Source: Dehalococcoidia bacterium
Lineage (GTDB): Bacteria; Chloroflexota; Dehalococcoidia; Tepidiformales; Tepidiformaceae
Assembly (NCBI GenBank): GCA_009839725.1
Contig: VXPF01000110.1
Location: forward strand, 1-42,069
DNA: 42,069 nt
Direction of reading: 5' to 3'
The translations under genes were made by a program, and so were the position numbers. The notes below the pieces were generated by a model that was not told the DNA's origin, ran no database searches, and saw only the letters and a program-made list of their open reading frames with translations. Shown in pieces: positions 22,407 through 31,014 of this stretch; position 1 is the first letter of the stretch; each line of letters opens with the position of its first letter.

Positions 22407-23693
22407 CTACGGCGCGCGGGAGTACGGGAAGTAGATGTAATCCGCCGGATTGAGGTACTGGCCGTTGTGGCGAATCTCGAAGTGGAGGTGCTCGCCGGTG
22501 CTAAAGCCGGTGGAGCCGGAGATGCCGAGCACGGTCTCGCCCTTGGTGACGCTCTGCCCCCACCGCACGACGATCTCGCGGAAGTGCGCGTAGAGGGTCT
22601 CCCAGCCCTCGCCGCAATCGACGATGACGTAGTACCCGTAGCTGTAGGTCAACCACTCGACGCGTGAGACCCAACCATCGCAGGAGGCATAGATGGAGGA
22701 GGCGGCGGTGACGCCGCCGAAGGCAAGGTCGATCCCGGTGTGGATGCGCCCGCCGCCCCGATCGGTGCCGTAGGGATCGCTGATGAAGCTCCAACCCGCC
22801 ACGGGGAGGCCGAAGCGGCCGGCGGAGACGGGAGGCGGGGGGCCGATGGTGTATCCGCCGGGGGTCTGAATGGGAGGCTCGGCCCCGGGGAGGAGGATGT
22901 ATTCCCCAACCAGGAGATTGCGGCCGTCGTCGAGGTTGTTGGGACGGTGATCGAGAACGTCCTGGACCGTGACGTAGAGGTACTTGGAGACGATGCGGGC
23001 GATGGTCTCGCCGTGGCCGACCTTGTAGAGAATGCCCACGACCTCACCAAGGGGGACGAGGATCCGCTCGCCGGGAGCGATCCAGCCACCGTCGGAGACC
23101 TCGGCGTTGTTGAGGAGGATATTGTCGACGGTGGTGTCATAGGTCTCGGCGATTTCGCTGAGGGTGTCCCCGCTGCGAACGGTGTAGAGGACGTAGGGCT
23201 CCCTGGGGTCGATCTGGTCGGCGAGGGTGCGGCTCTCGTAGCCGTCGTCCCGACTTGCGGCGTAGACATCGGCGACCTCGCCGGAGAGAGTGTCGTCGGT
23301 CTCGACGTCATCGGTGGGGCGGAGGGACACGGCGGGAGCGGCGAGCGACGCCCGGAGGGGCGAGGCCAGGGTCTCGTGGCTCACGCCGGGGCGGAGGTAG
23401 GTCTCGCCGGTGGGGGCGATGGCGCGCACGCCGGAGAGGGGCACGGGAGGGATGTGGGAGACGGGGGAGGGCTCGGCGTCGGTGACGAGATGAGCGGTGA
23501 GCAGGGCGGCGAGGGCAGCGATGCCGATGAGGAGGAGGTGGAGGACGGCACGGACGGGGAGGCGACCGTGGGCGTGCGATCGCGCCCGCGGGGATGAGCG
23601 CTCGTGGAGCAGGCTCAGCAGCCTATCCCTCAACACGGCCTTCGGGTCCCTCCCGCTCGTGGGCGCACCGGAGCCCCAACCCGGCGCTTGCAC
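22407..23693 (-). CDS. LysM-domain M23 family metallopeptidase
   Basis: A 428-residue envelope protein, likely a peptidoglycan endopeptidase or a wall-remodelling scaffold. After an unusual 45-residue basic cytoplasmic lead there is a single membrane segment (VLHLLLIGIAALAALLTAHLV). A linker follows, then a LysM domain (YTVRSGDTLSEIAETYDTT, about residue 170) and a second, degenerate LysM (YKVGHGETIARIVSKYLYVT). The C-terminal peptidase M23 domain has the zinc ligands in GRIHTGIDLAFGG and in EHLHFEIRHNG, plus LYAHFREI. GTG at 23691-23693 starts it with no good ribosome site. It is convergent with the sortase pair and downstream of rho. Confidence 0.9.
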   Translation of the reverse strand: MQAPGWGSGAPTSGRDPKAVLRDRLLSLLHERSSPRARSHAHGRLPVRAVLHLLLIGIAALAALLTAHLVTDAEPSPVSHIPPVPLSGVRAIAPTGETYLRPGVSHETLASPLRASLAAPAVSLRPTDDVETDDTLSGEVADVYAASRDDGYESRTLADQIDPREPYVLYTVRSGDTLSEIAETYDTTVDNILLNNAEVSDGGWIAPGERILVPLGEVVGILYKVGHGETIARIVSKYLYVTVQDVLDHRPNNLDDGRNLLVGEYILLPGAEPPIQTPGGYTIGPPPPVSAGRFGLPVAGWSFISDPYGTDRGGGRIHTGIDLAFGGVTAASSIYASCDGWVSRVEWLTYSYGYYVIVDCGEGWETLYAHFREIVVRWGQSVTKGETVLGISGSTGFSTGEHLHFEIRHNGQYLNPADYIYFPYSRAP

Positions 23694-26530: not shown

Positions 26531-26629
26531 GTGGAAGTTGGCGAATTCCTAGAGCTGGTTTTCGTGTTCATCACGATGTTCCTGGGCCTTGCCATCATGG
26601 TCGCATTCGGCAAGTGGTGGGAGCGATAG
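26531..26629 (+). CDS. 32-residue single-span membrane microprotein at head of bc operon
   Basis: A GTG-initiated frame of 32 codons, preceded by GGAGAGG with about 10 bases of spacing, ends 5 bases before the cytochrome b ATG. The peptide is acidic at the N-terminus (MEVGEFLEL). It then has one hydrophobic helix ([17 protein letters not shown]) and a GKWWER tail, the usual look of a tiny membrane subunit with its positive end inside. It is the first gene after a strong promoter. By position and topology it may be a small structural subunit of the quinol:cytochrome complex, analogous to PetG/PetL/PetN of b6f; there is no sequence proof. It is too short for ordinary gene callers. Confidence 0.65.
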
Positions 26630-26634
26630 CGCCG

Positions 26635-27387
26635 ATGGCCGTTGAACAGCCCACCCAACCGACCCTCGGCGACCTGATCTACGACAAGCTCTTCCACAAC
26701 TACGTGTGGAAGTCGATCTTCCGCACGGGGTATCCGAACACACCGCGCAACCAGATGCTGGTGGTCGCGACGAACGTGTTCCTGCACCTGCACCCGACGC
26801 GCATCCACCGCACGCACGTGAAGATCACGCACACCTACTGCCTCGGCGGGCTCACGTTCTTCATGTTCCTGGGCCTCACGGTGACGGGCATCCTGCTGAT
26901 GTTCTATTACGTGCCGAGCGTGGACCGGGCGTACCTCGACATCCAGAACATCCAGACGAACGTGCAGTTCGGCCAGTTGATGCGAAACATGCACCGCTGG
27001 ATGGCGCACGCGATGGTGATCCTCGTGTTCCTGCACATGCTGCGGGTGTTCTATACGGGAGCGTACAAGCCACCGCGCGAGTTCAACTGGGTCGTGGGCG
27101 TGGTGCTGCTGGTGCTGACGTTCCTGCTGAGCTTCACCGGCTACCTGCTGCCCTGGGACCAGCTGGCCTTCTGGGCCATCACGGTGGGCACGAACATCGC
27201 CGGTTCGGCGCCGGTGCTGGGCCCCAAGACGCGCTTCTGGCTGCTGGGCGGCTTCGAGGTTGGTCCGGACGCGCTGATTCGCTTCTACACGCTGCACGTG
27301 ATCGGCCTGCCCCTGCTGGCGGCAATCTTCATGGCCGTGCACTTCTGGCGGATTCGCCGGGACGGCGGCCTGGCGCGGCCGCTGTAA
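26635..27387 (+). CDS. Cytochrome b6-type subunit of menaquinol:cytochrome c reductase
   Basis: A 250-residue, four-helix heme b protein, the N-terminal half of a split cytochrome b. The bis-heme ligands are in [17 protein letters not shown] (His pair 14 apart) and [19 protein letters not shown] (pair 15 apart), with the same spacings as cytochrome b6. Cys69 in THTYCLGG matches the cysteine that binds the extra heme c in b6f and Bacillus QcrB. The ATG at 26635 follows the microprotein by 5 bases. The complex oxidises menaquinol at the outer face and passes electrons to the Rieske protein and a c-type or copper carrier. The downstream genes supply subunit IV, Rieske and the carrier in that order. 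Confidence 0.93.
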
Positions 27388-27406: not shown

Positions 27407-28297
27407 ATGGCTACCGTCGTCGTCGCCCGGCCGGCCGCCCGACCCACTCCTCGCGCTCGCGACGAGGAGGTGCTGGTCTGGCCGGACCTGGTCTTCGTCG
27501 AGTTCATCTCGGCGCTGCTGTTCACGGTGCTCCTCTTCCTGCTCTCGTACGTGATGAACGCGCCGCTCCTGGACGAGGCCAACGCGAACGTGACGAACGA
27601 CCCGGCGAAGGCGCCGTGGTACCTGCTGAACCTGCAGGAGCTGCTGCTGCACATGAACGCGGCGCTGGCGGGCATCGTCGTGCCGACGGTGTGGCTGATC
27701 ATCCTGGCGGCGTTCCCCTACTTCGACCGCTCGACGGAGGGGCAGGGGCGCTGGTTCGCGGACGTGAACTCGGTGAAGAACACCGTGCTTTCGCTCATGG
27801 TGGGCTTCTGGGGGACGCTGGCGCTCATCATCTGGAACTCGGGCAAGGCGGCGCTCTGGCTGAAGGACTGGTTCGGCTTCTCGGGCGGCGACACGCTGGC
27901 CTTCCTGGAGCGCTCGGCGGCGCTGAAGGACCCCTCGGTGGTGCCCTGGCCGGGCTGGTCCGACTCGATTCCCTACCTGTGGTTCAACCTGAAGATCCTG
28001 GACGAGGGTCCGGGCGCGGGCGTGACCACGTTCCAGCACATCGACCTGCCGACATTGCTGGTCGACATCGGCATTCCGACCGGGTTCATGGTCGGGCTGG
28101 CATGCCTGCTCATCTACGCCCTCTGGAAAGCTGGCTGGGTGCTGACGCGCCGCGACGCGCTGATCACGTTGATGAGCGGGTTCGTGGGCGCGTTCCTGAT
28201 GTTGACGATTATCGGTACCGCCTTCCGCGGTCCCGGCCAGGATCTGATCTGGCCGTGGGACCTGCGCACCCTCGAAGGCATTCCGGGGCAGGAGTAG
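27407..28297 (+). CDS. Cytochrome b C-terminal domain protein (subunit IV-like) of the bc complex
   Basis: A 296-residue membrane protein, longer than PetD (about 160). It begins with a Pro/Arg/Ala cytoplasmic lead, then helix 1 (FISALLFTVLLFLLSYV). The Qo-site segment NDPAKAPWYLLNLQELL follows, where classical complexes have PEWY; APWY-type versions occur in menaquinone-using relatives. More membrane helices follow (AGIVVPTVWLIILAAF; LSLMVGFWGTLALIIW), then a roughly 60-residue extramembrane insert, two final helices and the FRGPGQDLIWPWDL end. It starts 19 bases after cytochrome b and ends 7 bases before the Rieske gene. Unlike Bacillus QcrC it carries no heme c domain, which leaves that job to the last gene. 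Confidence 0.88.
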   Translation: MATVVVARPAARPTPRARDEEVLVWPDLVFVEFISALLFTVLLFLLSYVMNAPLLDEANANVTNDPAKAPWYLLNLQELLLHMNAALAGIVVPTVWLIILAAFPYFDRSTEGQGRWFADVNSVKNTVLSLMVGFWGTLALIIWNSGKAALWLKDWFGFSGGDTLAFLERSAALKDPSVVPWPGWSDSIPYLWFNLKILDEGPGAGVTTFQHIDLPTLLVDIGIPTGFMVGLACLLIYALWKAGWVLTRRDALITLMSGFVGAFLMLTIIGTAFRGPGQDLIWPWDLRTLEGIPGQE

Positions 28298-28304
28298 CGA
28301 GCGG

Positions 28305-28901
28305 ATGGCGCAGGCACAGCGGATCGAGCAGGCACGGCAGGCGGAGGCGCGCAAAGTCTCGCGGCGCTCGTTCATGCGCGTGAGCGCGTTCGCGGGGCTG
28401 ACGCTCTCGCTGGGGGCGTTCAGCGCGTTCTTCCTGGGTTTCTTCAACCTGCGCAGCCCGAAGGGCTTCGGGCAGCCGGTGACGGTGCCGAAGATCCAGA
28501 TTCCGGAGCCGGGCGGCGAGCCGGTGCGCATCACCGAAGGCAAGTTCTGGCTGGTGAACCTGGACGGCGCCGAAGGCGACGTACTGGATCAGGGCGGGAC
28601 GGGCGGCCTGCTGGCGCTGTACTGGAAGTGCCCGCACCTGGGCTGCACGGTTCCCTGGCGAGGGGACTTCGACGGGGCGGAGGTGGCGTTCCCGGGCATC
28701 CAGGGGTGGTTCCGCTGCCCCTGCCACGGCTCGACCTACTCGCGCGCGGGCGTGCGGGTCTTCGGACCGGCGCCTCGCCCGCTGGACACGTTCCTGCTGA
28801 CGACGAACAGCGACGGCTCGGTGACGGTGAACACGCGCGGGCTGACGCTCGGCGGCGGCAGCGTCCCCAACCCACAGCGGGCGGTTCCCTACAGTGGCTA
28901 G
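28305..28901 (+). CDS. Rieske [2Fe-2S] protein of the bc complex
   Basis: A 198-residue membrane-anchored iron-sulfur protein that takes one electron from quinol at the Qo site. It has a twin-arginine export signal (SRRSFMRVSAFAG) and one hydrophobic anchor (TLSLGAFSAFFLGFF). The cluster-binding motifs are CPHLGC (Cys109, His111, Cys114) and CPCHGS (Cys138, Cys140, His141). The outer cysteines of these boxes form the usual disulfide. The remaining sequence ends with a Gly/Pro-rich tail. It sits third in the operon, whereas Bacillus-type operons place Rieske first. Confidence 0.95.
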   Translation: MAQAQRIEQARQAEARKVSRRSFMRVSAFAGLTLSLGAFSAFFLGFFNLRSPKGFGQPVTVPKIQIPEPGGEPVRITEGKFWLVNLDGAEGDVLDQGGTGGLLALYWKCPHLGCTVPWRGDFDGAEVAFPGIQGWFRCPCHGSTYSRAGVRVFGPAPRPLDTFLLTTNSDGSVTVNTRGLTLGGGSVPNPQRAVPYSG

Positions 28902-28919: not shown

Positions 28920-30659
28920 TTGAACACACAGCGCCAAATCTTCCTGATCGTGGTGCTGATGTTCATCAGCGTGGCCGGCTGCGCCGCCTACACGGCGATC
29001 GACCTGCCTATCCGCGCCGAGCGGCAGGCGGACTTCTTCGAGGCGGAGTCGATCGAGCGCGGGGCGCTGCTCTACGCGAACAACTGCCGCACGTGCCACG
29101 GCATCCGGGGCGAGGGCGGCGTGGGGCTGACGCTGAACAAGGCGTCGTTCCGGAACCAGGAGCCGCTGGCGCTCTCCCAGAACCAGGACCTCATCCGGCG
29201 CACGCTGCTGTGCGGGCGGGCGGGCACGCTGATGCCGGCCTGGCTCGATGCGAACGGCGGCAGCCTGACGGCGAACCAGATCGAGCACCTCGTGCGGCTG
29301 CTGACAGCGCCGCTCGAGGAAGGGACGTTCGACGCGAACGGGAACCCCACGAACCACGGGTGGCTGGCGGCGGTGGAATTCGCGCACAACCTGAACCATG
29401 AGTCGACGGCGGCGGTAACGGGAGACACGCTCCCGCAGATCGCGACAGCGCACGGAATCGGGGATGACCCCGTTTCCGGGGCGATCCTGATCGCGAGGCT
29501 GAACGGCATCGCCTACGCTGTCGATGAGTCCGGCAACTTCTACCTGCCCTACTCCGGCAGCGACGAAGCCGCGATGCTGGACCCGAAGGCGGGCACCATC
29601 GCGACGGGGCTGCTGCCGGGACAGACGCTGCGGCTGCCCGAGGGCGCGACTTACAAGGTGCAGGCGGGCAACACGCTGGCGAGCATCGCCGAGCAGCACG
29701 GCATCACGCCGGCGGACCTGCGCTCGCTCAACTCGCTCTTCCTGACCACCGTGGGCGACATCGCCGACGACACGCCACTGACAGGGAAGCGCAAGCTGCT
29801 GCTGCCCGCGGGGACGAGCTACACCGCCCAGGCCGGCGACACGCTGCTCTCGATCGCGGATGCGCACGACCTCCCGGTGCTGGCGCTGGCGGAGGACAAC
29901 GGGCTCGCCGAGGACGCGGCCATCGCGGAAGGGCATGAGCTCTCGCTGCGCGACGGCACGAGGTACATCATCCAGTTCGGCGACACGGTTCTCTCCATCG
30001 CAAGCGCCCACGGCCTGATGGAAGGCGCACTGCGCTCGCTCAACGAACTGGGCGCGGGCGAGGAGATCTCGGAGGAGGTCTGGCTGGCGCTCCCGCCGAT
30101 CAACTCCTACCTCGTGAATGGCGCCGACCTGACTGAGGTGGCGAGCGGCTTCGGCAATGTGACGGCCGCGTCGCTGGGCGACGCGAACGGCGTCGCCGCG
30201 GACGCGGTCCTGCCCATCGGCAAGGTGCTGCACTTCCCGGCGGACTCCTGGGGCGCGGCGCCGTCGGACGAGATCAACCCCGGTACGGCCTGCGTCGAGC
30301 ACACGGTCTCGTCGAGCGCCTTCAACACCATCAGCGGGGCCGACCCGATCGTGATCGACGAGCCGAACGCGGTTTCGACGGACGTGGTCATCCTCGCCAA
30401 CGACAATGACTGGACGATCGTGGCCGACGGCGAGTCCCTGGCGCCGAACCGCTCGGGCGTGAAGGTGACGGCGGGAACAACGGTGACGTTCGAGAACGTG
30501 GTGGGACTCCACAACATCGAGATCGACGGGGAACAGCAGGGCGCCGACTTCGAGGTCGTGGGCGAAACGCGAACCTTCACCTTCGACTTGCCTGGCGAGT
30601 ACCGCATTACGTGCAGCTACCACCCGGACATGCTGGCCGTGGTATTCGTGGCCGAATAG
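28920..30659 (+). CDS. Lipoprotein fusing cytochrome c, LysM repeats and cupredoxin; last gene of bc operon
   Basis: A 579-residue exported protein with three kinds of domain. A signal peptide ends in a perfect lipobox VAGC (Cys21). A c-type heme domain follows (about residues 40-135), with CRTCH (Cys56, Cys59, His60) and a likely axial Met105 in TLMPAW. Then come four to five LysM or LysM-like repeats: about 165-242 (VTGDTLPQIATAHGI, degenerate), 245-297 (YKVQAGNTLASIAEQHGI), 301-345 (YTAQAGDTLLSIADAH), 349-392 (YIIQFGDTVLSIASAHGL) and 397-440 (weak). The C-terminal cupredoxin (about 487-579) has the type-1 copper ligands His531, Cys565, His568 and Met571 (CSYHPDM). It starts with TTG 19 bases after Rieske. 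Inference: it is the electron acceptor of the complex, held at the wall by LysM, with heme and copper in one chain. I know of no standard bc subunit with this architecture. Confidence 0.9.
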   Translation: MNTQRQIFLIVVLMFISVAGCAAYTAIDLPIRAERQADFFEAESIERGALLYANNCRTCHGIRGEGGVGLTLNKASFRNQEPLALSQNQDLIRRTLLCGRAGTLMPAWLDANGGSLTANQIEHLVRLLTAPLEEGTFDANGNPTNHGWLAAVEFAHNLNHESTAAVTGDTLPQIATAHGIGDDPVSGAILIARLNGIAYAVDESGNFYLPYSGSDEAAMLDPKAGTIATGLLPGQTLRLPEGATYKVQAGNTLASIAEQHGITPADLRSLNSLFLTTVGDIADDTPLTGKRKLLLPAGTSYTAQAGDTLLSIADAHDLPVLALAEDNGLAEDAAIAEGHELSLRDGTRYIIQFGDTVLSIASAHGLMEGALRSLNELGAGEEISEEVWLALPPINSYLVNGADLTEVASGFGNVTAASLGDANGVAADAVLPIGKVLHFPADSWGAAPSDEINPGTACVEHTVSSSAFNTISGADPIVIDEPNAVSTDVVILANDNDWTIVADGESLAPNRSGVKVTAGTTVTFENVVGLHNIEIDGEQQGADFEVVGETRTFTFDLPGEYRITCSYHPDMLAVVFVAE

Positions 30660-30737: not shown

Positions 30738-30857
30738 ATGGCGGCACAGACGGGAAAACGGTATTTCTGTCCGAGTTGCGGCGCTGAGTTCATCGTGACG
30801 AAGGGCGGCGAAGGCGAGCTGAAGTGCGGCGACACGCCGCTTGAGCTGAAGAAGTAA
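30738..30857 (+). CDS. Desulforedoxin-like 39-residue protein, three of four metal cysteines
   Basis: A tiny protein with an excellent ribosome site (AAGGAGGG) before ATG 30738. Its sequence aligns along its length with the desulforedoxin/rubredoxin-knuckle fold: KRYFCPSCGAEF matches the YKCELCG start of desulforedoxin, and ELKCGDTPLEL matches the CC-containing end. Cys11 and Cys14 form a CxxC. Only one of the usual two adjacent cysteines near the C-terminus remains. It could bind iron or zinc with three sulfurs, alone or with its neighbour. The second paralogue starts 13 bases downstream. Confidence 0.75.
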   Translation: MAAQTGKRYFCPSCGAEFIVTKGGEGELKCGDTPLELKK

Positions 30858-30870
30858 CGGGAGACGTTCG

Positions 30871-31014
30871 ATGGCCGTACAACTGGGGAAGCGCTACAAG
30901 GACGAGGAGACCGGCATTGAGGTGCTGGTGATCAAGCCGGGCGACTGCGACCTGAAGTGCGACGAGCGCGACATGGAGCTGATGCAGCCGAAGGTCCTGC
31001 CCTCGGCCGACTAG
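30871..31014 (+). CDS. Desulforedoxin-like 47-residue paralogue lacking the CxxC
   Basis: It has the same MAxQxGKRY start and spacing as the preceding gene, so it is clearly a paralogue. The metal knuckle is gone: DEET occupies the CxxC position. Two cysteines remain in GDCDLKCDERDMEL; the second aligns with a ligand cysteine of desulforedoxin and the first is new. It may pair with the preceding protein to complete a site, or serve as a scaffold. GGGAG lies 6 bases before the ATG (30859-30863). Confidence 0.7.
   Translation: MAVQLGKRYKDEETGIEVLVIKPGDCDLKCDERDMELMQPKVLPSAD

Follow-up and report, generated by a model that had tools for sequence, protein, structure and literature searches.

A conserved cytochrome c-LysM-cupredoxin fusion, probably the subunit through which electrons leave a cytochrome bc complex in Tepidiformales

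In a Dehalococcoidia genome of the order Tepidiformales, the fourth gene of a cytochrome bc operon encodes a chain of 579 amino acids in which a cytochrome c domain, an array of LysM units and a cupredoxin domain follow one another. The DNA that was analyzed, called the window below, is a stretch of 42,069 nucleotides (contig VXPF01000110.1 of assembly GCA_009839725.1). The fusion is real, conserved in the order, and unusual. It is proposed that the protein serves as a tethered, wall-attached arm through which electrons leave the bc complex from heme to copper, with the LysM array as a side loop and without the need for a diffusible cytochrome c. A probability of roughly 60% is assigned to this reading.

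Results

The gene and its place in the operon

The open frame has a TTG start, which coincides with residue 1 of the aligned relatives. At the equivalent position ATG was found in 28 of the 33 Dehalococcoidia relatives outside the order, and the others had CAG (three), AGC and TTG. Two claims that had been made from the sequence alone were confirmed, namely that the gene belongs to a bc operon, in which it is the fourth gene, and that subunit IV has no heme c. The gene follows cytochrome b, subunit IV and the Rieske protein, from which it is separated by 18 nt, and this place was retained in the loci that extend far enough. The features by which an exit subunit of a bc complex is recognized were present: the gene lies beside those for cytochrome b and the Rieske protein, and it encodes a heme c domain with a Met ligand and a predicted membrane anchor. 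The coordinates and the supporting evidence are summarized in Table 1.

Table 1. Genes of the bc operon and features of the fourth subunit, in positions of the window.
Feature	Position	Strand	Evidence
Cytochrome b (b6-type), operon gene 1	26614..27387	+	Pfam Cytochrome_B 1.3e-48; His pairs (x13, x14) at residues 127/141 and 228/243
Subunit IV-like protein	27407..28297	+	Cytochrom_B_C E 0.001, 19.7 bits, slightly under the 20.7-bit cut-off; no CxxCH; APWY replaces PEWY
Rieske iron-sulfur protein	28305..28901	+	Rieske 2.1e-7; CPHLGC and CPCH
Cytochrome c-LysM-cupredoxin subunit, 579 aa	28920..30659	+	Open frame, Pfam, conservation, AlphaFold2 model
Membrane anchor and stalk, residues 1-40	28920..29039	+	Model helix 3-55; Cys21 possible lipid site
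Cytochrome c domain, residues 41-130	29040..29309	+	Cytochrome_CBB3 3.8e-7 (45-125), matched by 49/49 members of alignment A1; Cytochrom_C 5.2e-5
Heme c site C56-R-T-C59-H60	29085..29099	+	C56, C59 and H60 without variation in A1
C98, predicted to form a disulfide with C458	29211..29213	+	32/32 in the order; 46/62 in the wider set
Met105, likely sixth heme ligand	29232..29234	+	31/32 in the order
Five LysM-like units, residues 160-442	29397..30245	+	Pfam LysM 3.4e-27; model; Foldseek 4uz2, 4b8v
C458, equivalent to the CGQ cysteine in relatives	30291..30293	+	32/32 in the order
Cupredoxin domain, residues 485-579	30372..30656	+	Copper-bind 1e-4 (502-576); cupredoxin folds in Foldseek
Type-1 copper ligands H531, C565, H568, M571	30510..30632	+	32/32, 32/32, 32/32, 31/32 in the order

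Two small frames were noted downstream on the same strand. The first (30738-30857, 39 aa) contains CPSCG and a later Cys, and the second (30871-31014, 47 aa) contains two Cys and resembles the first at its start. By eye, both are similar to tiny paired metal-ribbon or desulforedoxin-like proteins.

Domains and structure model

All four Pfam matches of the chain exceeded their gathering scores, for example LysM with 94.6 bits (cut-off 20.9) and Copper-bind with 23.1 bits (cut-off 21.2), and, thus, the presence of cytochrome c, LysM and cupredoxin domains in one chain, as originally read, was verified by the domain search. An AlphaFold2 model, which contains neither heme nor copper, was built from the 49 sequences of alignment A1 (29 from the order and 20 from outside) and reached a mean pLDDT of 88.8 and a pTM of 0.69. 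It shows an unbroken helix (residues 3-55), helices in the cytochrome c region, five LysM-like units, and a beta domain at the C-terminus. The units were delimited by eye from the DSSP assignment at about 160-240, 241-297, 298-345, 346-393 and 394-442; each has the order strand-helix-helix-strand, the first is irregular, and residues 214-228 are poorly modelled. The five units agree with the four to five LysM repeats that had been counted in the sequence. Pfam LysM stretches numbered three at E <=1 and two at 0.01.

In a Foldseek search with the model, copper nitrite reductases and a multicopper oxidase (6hbe, 9cck) took the top ranks, followed by plastocyanins and other cupredoxins, and amicyanin, auracyanin (6kol) and the two LysM structures were among the best 50. 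When solved structures were searched by sequence, the three parts were covered by cytochrome c subunits of the cbb3 type, LysM proteins and cupredoxins. Score and fold together identify the middle region as LysM, and score, His-Cys-His-Met ligands and fold identify the C-terminal region as a type-1 copper domain of the plastocyanin/azurin kind. The structure prediction, which had been suggested as a check on the middle region and the copper domain, was, therefore, in favor of both. How the domains lie with respect to each other is poorly defined, because the pTM is only 0.69 and the blocks around C98 and C458 have a lower pLDDT (mean of 78 for the C98 block, which adjoins a block of 58, and 58 for the C458 block).

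Conservation in the order

The gene was found in 36 of the 38 genomes of the order; completeness is 81% for G014 and 72% for G024, the two genomes without it. The search itself gave matches at 1e-5 in 37 of the 38 genomes, but in G024 nothing matched except the cytochrome c portion of a different and longer frame. One uninterrupted frame was present in 32 copies, three copies (G016, G017, G021) were cut by contig ends, and the copy of G006 was spread over two contigs, with one piece in two overlapping frames. An assembly fusion of separate genes, which had been named as a result that would overturn the reading, was ruled out by these numbers.

The heme site with Met105 and the type-1 copper site, both of which had been proposed from the sequence, are near-invariant. 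Among the 32 distinct sequences of the order, the only exceptions were one Q in place of M571 and one L in place of M105. All six cysteines of the protein were invariant wherever the sequence was present. LysM was detected in all 29 members of the order in A1 (29 of 49 in A1 overall).

The N-terminus had been described as a perfect lipobox. C21 is indeed invariant in the order (31/31; the N-terminus is missing in one of the 32 sequences), but the wording is uncertain, as Cys was found at this position in only three of the 33 Dehalococcoidia relatives read outside the order. Because of this low number and the unbroken helix of the model, an uncleaved N-terminal membrane anchor is possible.

Distribution of the second redox head in Chloroflexota

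The search was extended to the class, with the three best candidates per genome scored, and gave matches at 1e-12 in 138 of 393 genomes. The order accounts for only part of them, as 102 of the 138 lie outside it, and the loci of 33 of these were read. In the phylum, 83 of 400 genomes matched, 70 of them outside the class, and 20 were read with their operon. Nine proteins of the order, the 33 of the class and the 20 of the phylum formed a set of 62 proteins. Four further short loci of the phylum (L122, L124, L126, L127) had heme heads and no extra Cys, and were left out of this set. A second alignment, A2, comprised 29 class relatives, including the 20 outsiders of A1. Among the matches listed, those of the class outside the order began in the first residues and ended by residue 265.

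The loci had been chosen for spread over families and not at random, and within this choice 28 of the 33 class loci encode a monoheme cytochrome c with one or two cupredoxins, two encode a second heme, and three (L047, L055, L066) have no second redox head, so that a second head is not always needed. In two loci (L041, L044) the fourth subunit has two consecutive cupredoxin motifs, and in another (L043) the operon has two Rieske matches. Outside the class, two or three hemes were found in 14 of the 20 loci and one heme with a cupredoxin in six. The head states were called by motif and are confirmed by Pfam only in part: of the 29 proteins in A2, 27 are copper-headed by motif, and Cupredoxin_1 matched 20, Copper-bind 19 and SoxE six. 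LysM was not detected by Pfam in any of the 29. Heme and copper heads without LysM are, therefore, present in 27 scanned class relatives; L061, which is also copper-headed, was outside the scan.

A search for the same architecture beside bc operons of other Chloroflexota, which had been suggested as a further check, was, thus, positive for the heme-copper part and, in the 29 class relatives scanned, negative for LysM. On these counts the heme-copper part is distributed more widely than the LysM part, and the wall-binding type of loop was found in one order only. Because most class loci combine one heme with a cupredoxin and most of the others have two or three hemes, the cupredoxin sits at the spot of the further hemes of the di- and triheme relatives. 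In a tree of cytochrome b and Rieske protein with 59 rows (L046, L048 and L062 were not included), the states copper, heme and none need five changes, which are undirected; the count is approximate, because the tree was a quick one and carries a warning of long branches meeting (two copper-headed groups outside the class). Judging by the five changes, the second head was apparently exchanged several times.

Electron carriers and oxidase in the genome

The genome of the window is 92% complete and contains a cytochrome c assembly gene. A search with PF13442 and PF00034, which would miss unusual cytochromes, revealed no cytochrome c in it other than the product of the fourth bc gene. PF00034 was also applied to the order, in 13 genomes altogether. 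In all nine genomes of the genus and in G010 the only match above the cut-off was the fourth bc gene. In G030 an additional match lay below the cut-off. G022, G027 and G037 had one more match each, in frames of 784-918 aa. These frames (791-918 aa in the loci L096 and L097 of G022 and G027, 784 aa in G037) contain a cytochrome c domain.

The genome encodes one COX1 and one COX2. After COX3, a protein of 406 aa with a cupredoxin tip is encoded (G000:C56:11680-12900, L091:8681-9901; Cupredoxin_1 5.9e-8), in which membrane segments were assigned by eye. Homologues were present in 11 of 12 cox loci of the order, and the exception, L160, is a more distant cox operon. The 12 loci were taken from 37 genomes with a COX2 match, and four of them (G001, G003, G017, G023) had been picked for a nearby Copper-bind match, which favors the cupredoxin reading. 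In L158 the contig ends ahead of the copper motif. Some relatives of the protein have two copper motifs.

Because no other cytochrome c was found, COX1 and COX2 are single, and the cox operon encodes a cupredoxin, the simplest path would lead from heme to copper, to a second copper and to CuA. Quinol electrons would pass from the Rieske protein to heme c and then to the type-1 copper of the same chain, which would deliver them to the oxidase, where CuA would receive them, either directly or via the protein with the cupredoxin tip that the cox operon encodes. Since the cupredoxin would take over the role that further hemes have in the di- and triheme relatives and in actinobacterial QcrC, no diffusible cytochrome c would be needed.

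With PF00127 and PF13473 a third cupredoxin locus was detected in the genome, besides the fourth bc gene and the cox protein. It encodes a small protein of 131 aa with a lipobox-like N-terminus (G000:C83), and a mobile carrier is, therefore, possible. The earlier idea of a tethered substitute for a diffusible carrier remains plausible, as heme and copper share one chain and no other cytochrome c was found, but it is qualified by this small protein. In the alternative explanation, only the heme head would work in the bc complex, the cupredoxin head would serve for docking or storage only, and the real carrier that shuttles between the complexes would be the small cupredoxin. Outside the genus, 29 genomes of the order were counted, and 24 of them had at least three Copper-bind matches, compared with one or two within the genus; the class profile also matches auracyanins. 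Auracyanin is regarded as a shuttle of this type in Chloroflexus. However, the near-invariant copper ligands of the bc head across the order suggest a redox role of that head, and relatives repeatedly carry copper heads at the same place, so that a shuttle of this kind is unlikely, though it deserves to be kept in mind beside the tethered exit arm.

The cysteine pair and the LysM loop

Besides the cysteines of the heme site, the copper site and the N-terminus, the protein contains only C98, which lies seven residues ahead of Met105, and C458. In the set of 62 proteins C98 was present in 46, and a second extra Cys was present in every one of these; L046, L050 and L064 have four extra cysteines in all. 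Of the 16 proteins without C98, 15 have no extra Cys, including L143 with both heme and copper heads, while L142, also with both heads, has C202/C206. The distance from the first to the second extra Cys was highly variable (65-511 residues, sd 124, n=46), whereas that from the second extra Cys to the first copper Cys was nearly constant (96-139 residues, sd 11, n=41).

On the basis of this co-occurrence and of the length distributions, a C98-C458 disulfide is predicted, which would turn the LysM array into a side loop off the redox path and bring the cupredoxin near the Met-ligand loop of the heme. The number of independent co-occurrences is small, as the tree shows just two changes of the pair. 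In six relatives from other orders (L049, L050, L051, L054, L056, L058), repeats of the VERGxxGTxAxxH type, recognized by eye, replace LysM between the two cysteines.

The sequence-only reading had placed the LysM repeats as a wall-anchored spacer that separates heme and copper, and this part of it was not supported. A linear tether is suggested by the order of the domains along the chain, and it would be tolerated by the loose placing of the domains in the model, but it is disfavored by the cysteine pair, which would close the array into a loop, by the variable loop next to a near-constant distance to the copper site, and by the 27 scanned class relatives that have both heads without any LysM. 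It is, thus, regarded as quite improbable, and the side loop of the exit arm is preferred.

It is very improbable that the operon encodes an Ext-like selenite/tellurite or extracellular electron-transfer complex that does not respire to oxygen, because, although cytochrome b exceeds the cut-off of NCBIfam ExtP by 10 bits (300 versus 290), subunit IV stays about 100 bits below that of ExtQ (48.9 versus 150) and both subunits would have to match, the operon includes a Rieske gene, a scan of all frames of the window found none with more than one CxxCH, and the genome has a cox operon.

Discussion

Attachment to the cell wall and implications

Taken together, the chain of 579 amino acids would be the electron-exit subunit of a bc complex, with a membrane-anchored monoheme cytochrome c head and a plastocyanin-like cupredoxin head. 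As is typical for the family, the LysM loop would bind peptidoglycan and hold the arm at the wall. For cultivated Tepidiforma a peptidoglycan layer was confirmed, with 20-30 nm, and the Tepidiformales were called monoderm (PMC10284905). The same study reports peptidoglycan genes in Dehalococcoidia orders 1-9 (PMC10284905); since LysM was found only in the order of the window, wall and LysM are not strictly coupled. The window also encodes, at 22407-23693 on the reverse strand, an M23 peptidase that carries a LysM domain, which fits a peptidoglycan wall.

A more general scheme is offered tentatively, and the odds are somewhat against it. Bc complexes of Chloroflexota would have a fixed cytochrome c base with an exchangeable second head, which may be a heme c, a cupredoxin, two cupredoxins or none. 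The order of the window would have turned this into a wall-anchored wire, in which the sole c-type heme detected by the searches lies inside complex III, electrons exit via copper, a second copper head sits on the oxidase, and no diffusible carrier operates between complexes III and IV. If this is true, the carrier between these complexes can be exchanged piece by piece, a blue-copper domain taking the spot of a heme domain, and attachment to the cell wall is possible for a respiratory complex. As the order has cultivated members, namely Tepidiforma (PMC10284905), both claims are open to experiment.

Comparison with known systems

Among the matches listed from the open-licence literature, no title or beginning of an abstract described a cupredoxin or a LysM domain as part of a bc subunit. 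The auracyanins of Chloroflexus and Roseiflexus are likewise blue copper proteins of Chloroflexota, and they were matched by the class profile (7.6e-13 for 6kol, 2.8e-12 for 2aan). They are partners of alternative complex III, and, in contrast to the cupredoxin described here, they are separate proteins that are not fused to a bc subunit. In the SoxM supercomplex of Sulfolobus a blue copper protein, sulfocyanin, links the Rieske-cytochrome b unit and the oxidase, and Pfam SoxE matched the six class relatives mentioned above. In that supercomplex, however, the copper protein forms a subunit of its own and has no heme c head.

Nitrite reductases also include chains that combine a heme c with a cupredoxin fold. 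Copper nitrite reductases of three domains, to which a cytochrome c is tethered, are described in one report (PMC13324648), and another describes NirK/NirS fusions of Chloroflexi with both folds (PMC8756737) and lists, in an appendix table, a cytochrome b6 domain (PRK03735) for the frame RME88945.1 (PMC8756737). In contrast to the bc subunit, these proteins are nitrite reductases, and the available parts of their descriptions mention no LysM. The fourth subunits of other Chloroflexota with two or three hemes (for example L109, L110, L111, L128-L130, L133-L136) have the same gene position and a similar anchor and first cytochrome c domain, but their further heads are heme c, and a cysteine pair of the C98 type is absent from all that were read outside the class.

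Another similar system is QcrC of the actinobacterial bcc-aa3 complexes. QcrC is reported to have two hemes C (PMC8361435), and mycobacteria are reported to lack a soluble cytochrome c (PMC4505504). Like the protein described here, QcrC is an exit subunit that carries two redox heads in a single chain, and the class profile matched the structures 7q21_C, 6adq_C and 6hwh_M. The protein of the window is not a QcrC-type diheme cytochrome cc, since it has one CxxCH instead of two, and it scored 24.2 bits against the cut-off of 200 of NCBIfam bc1_QcrC_actin. The two systems also differ in the type-1 copper of the second head, in the LysM loop and in the split b6-type cytochrome b with a subunit IV. 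Carrier-free chains are known mainly from the actinobacterial bcc-aa3 supercomplexes, and, if the proposed exit arm is correct, the order of the window would represent a second case of the origin of such a chain, with a different metal.
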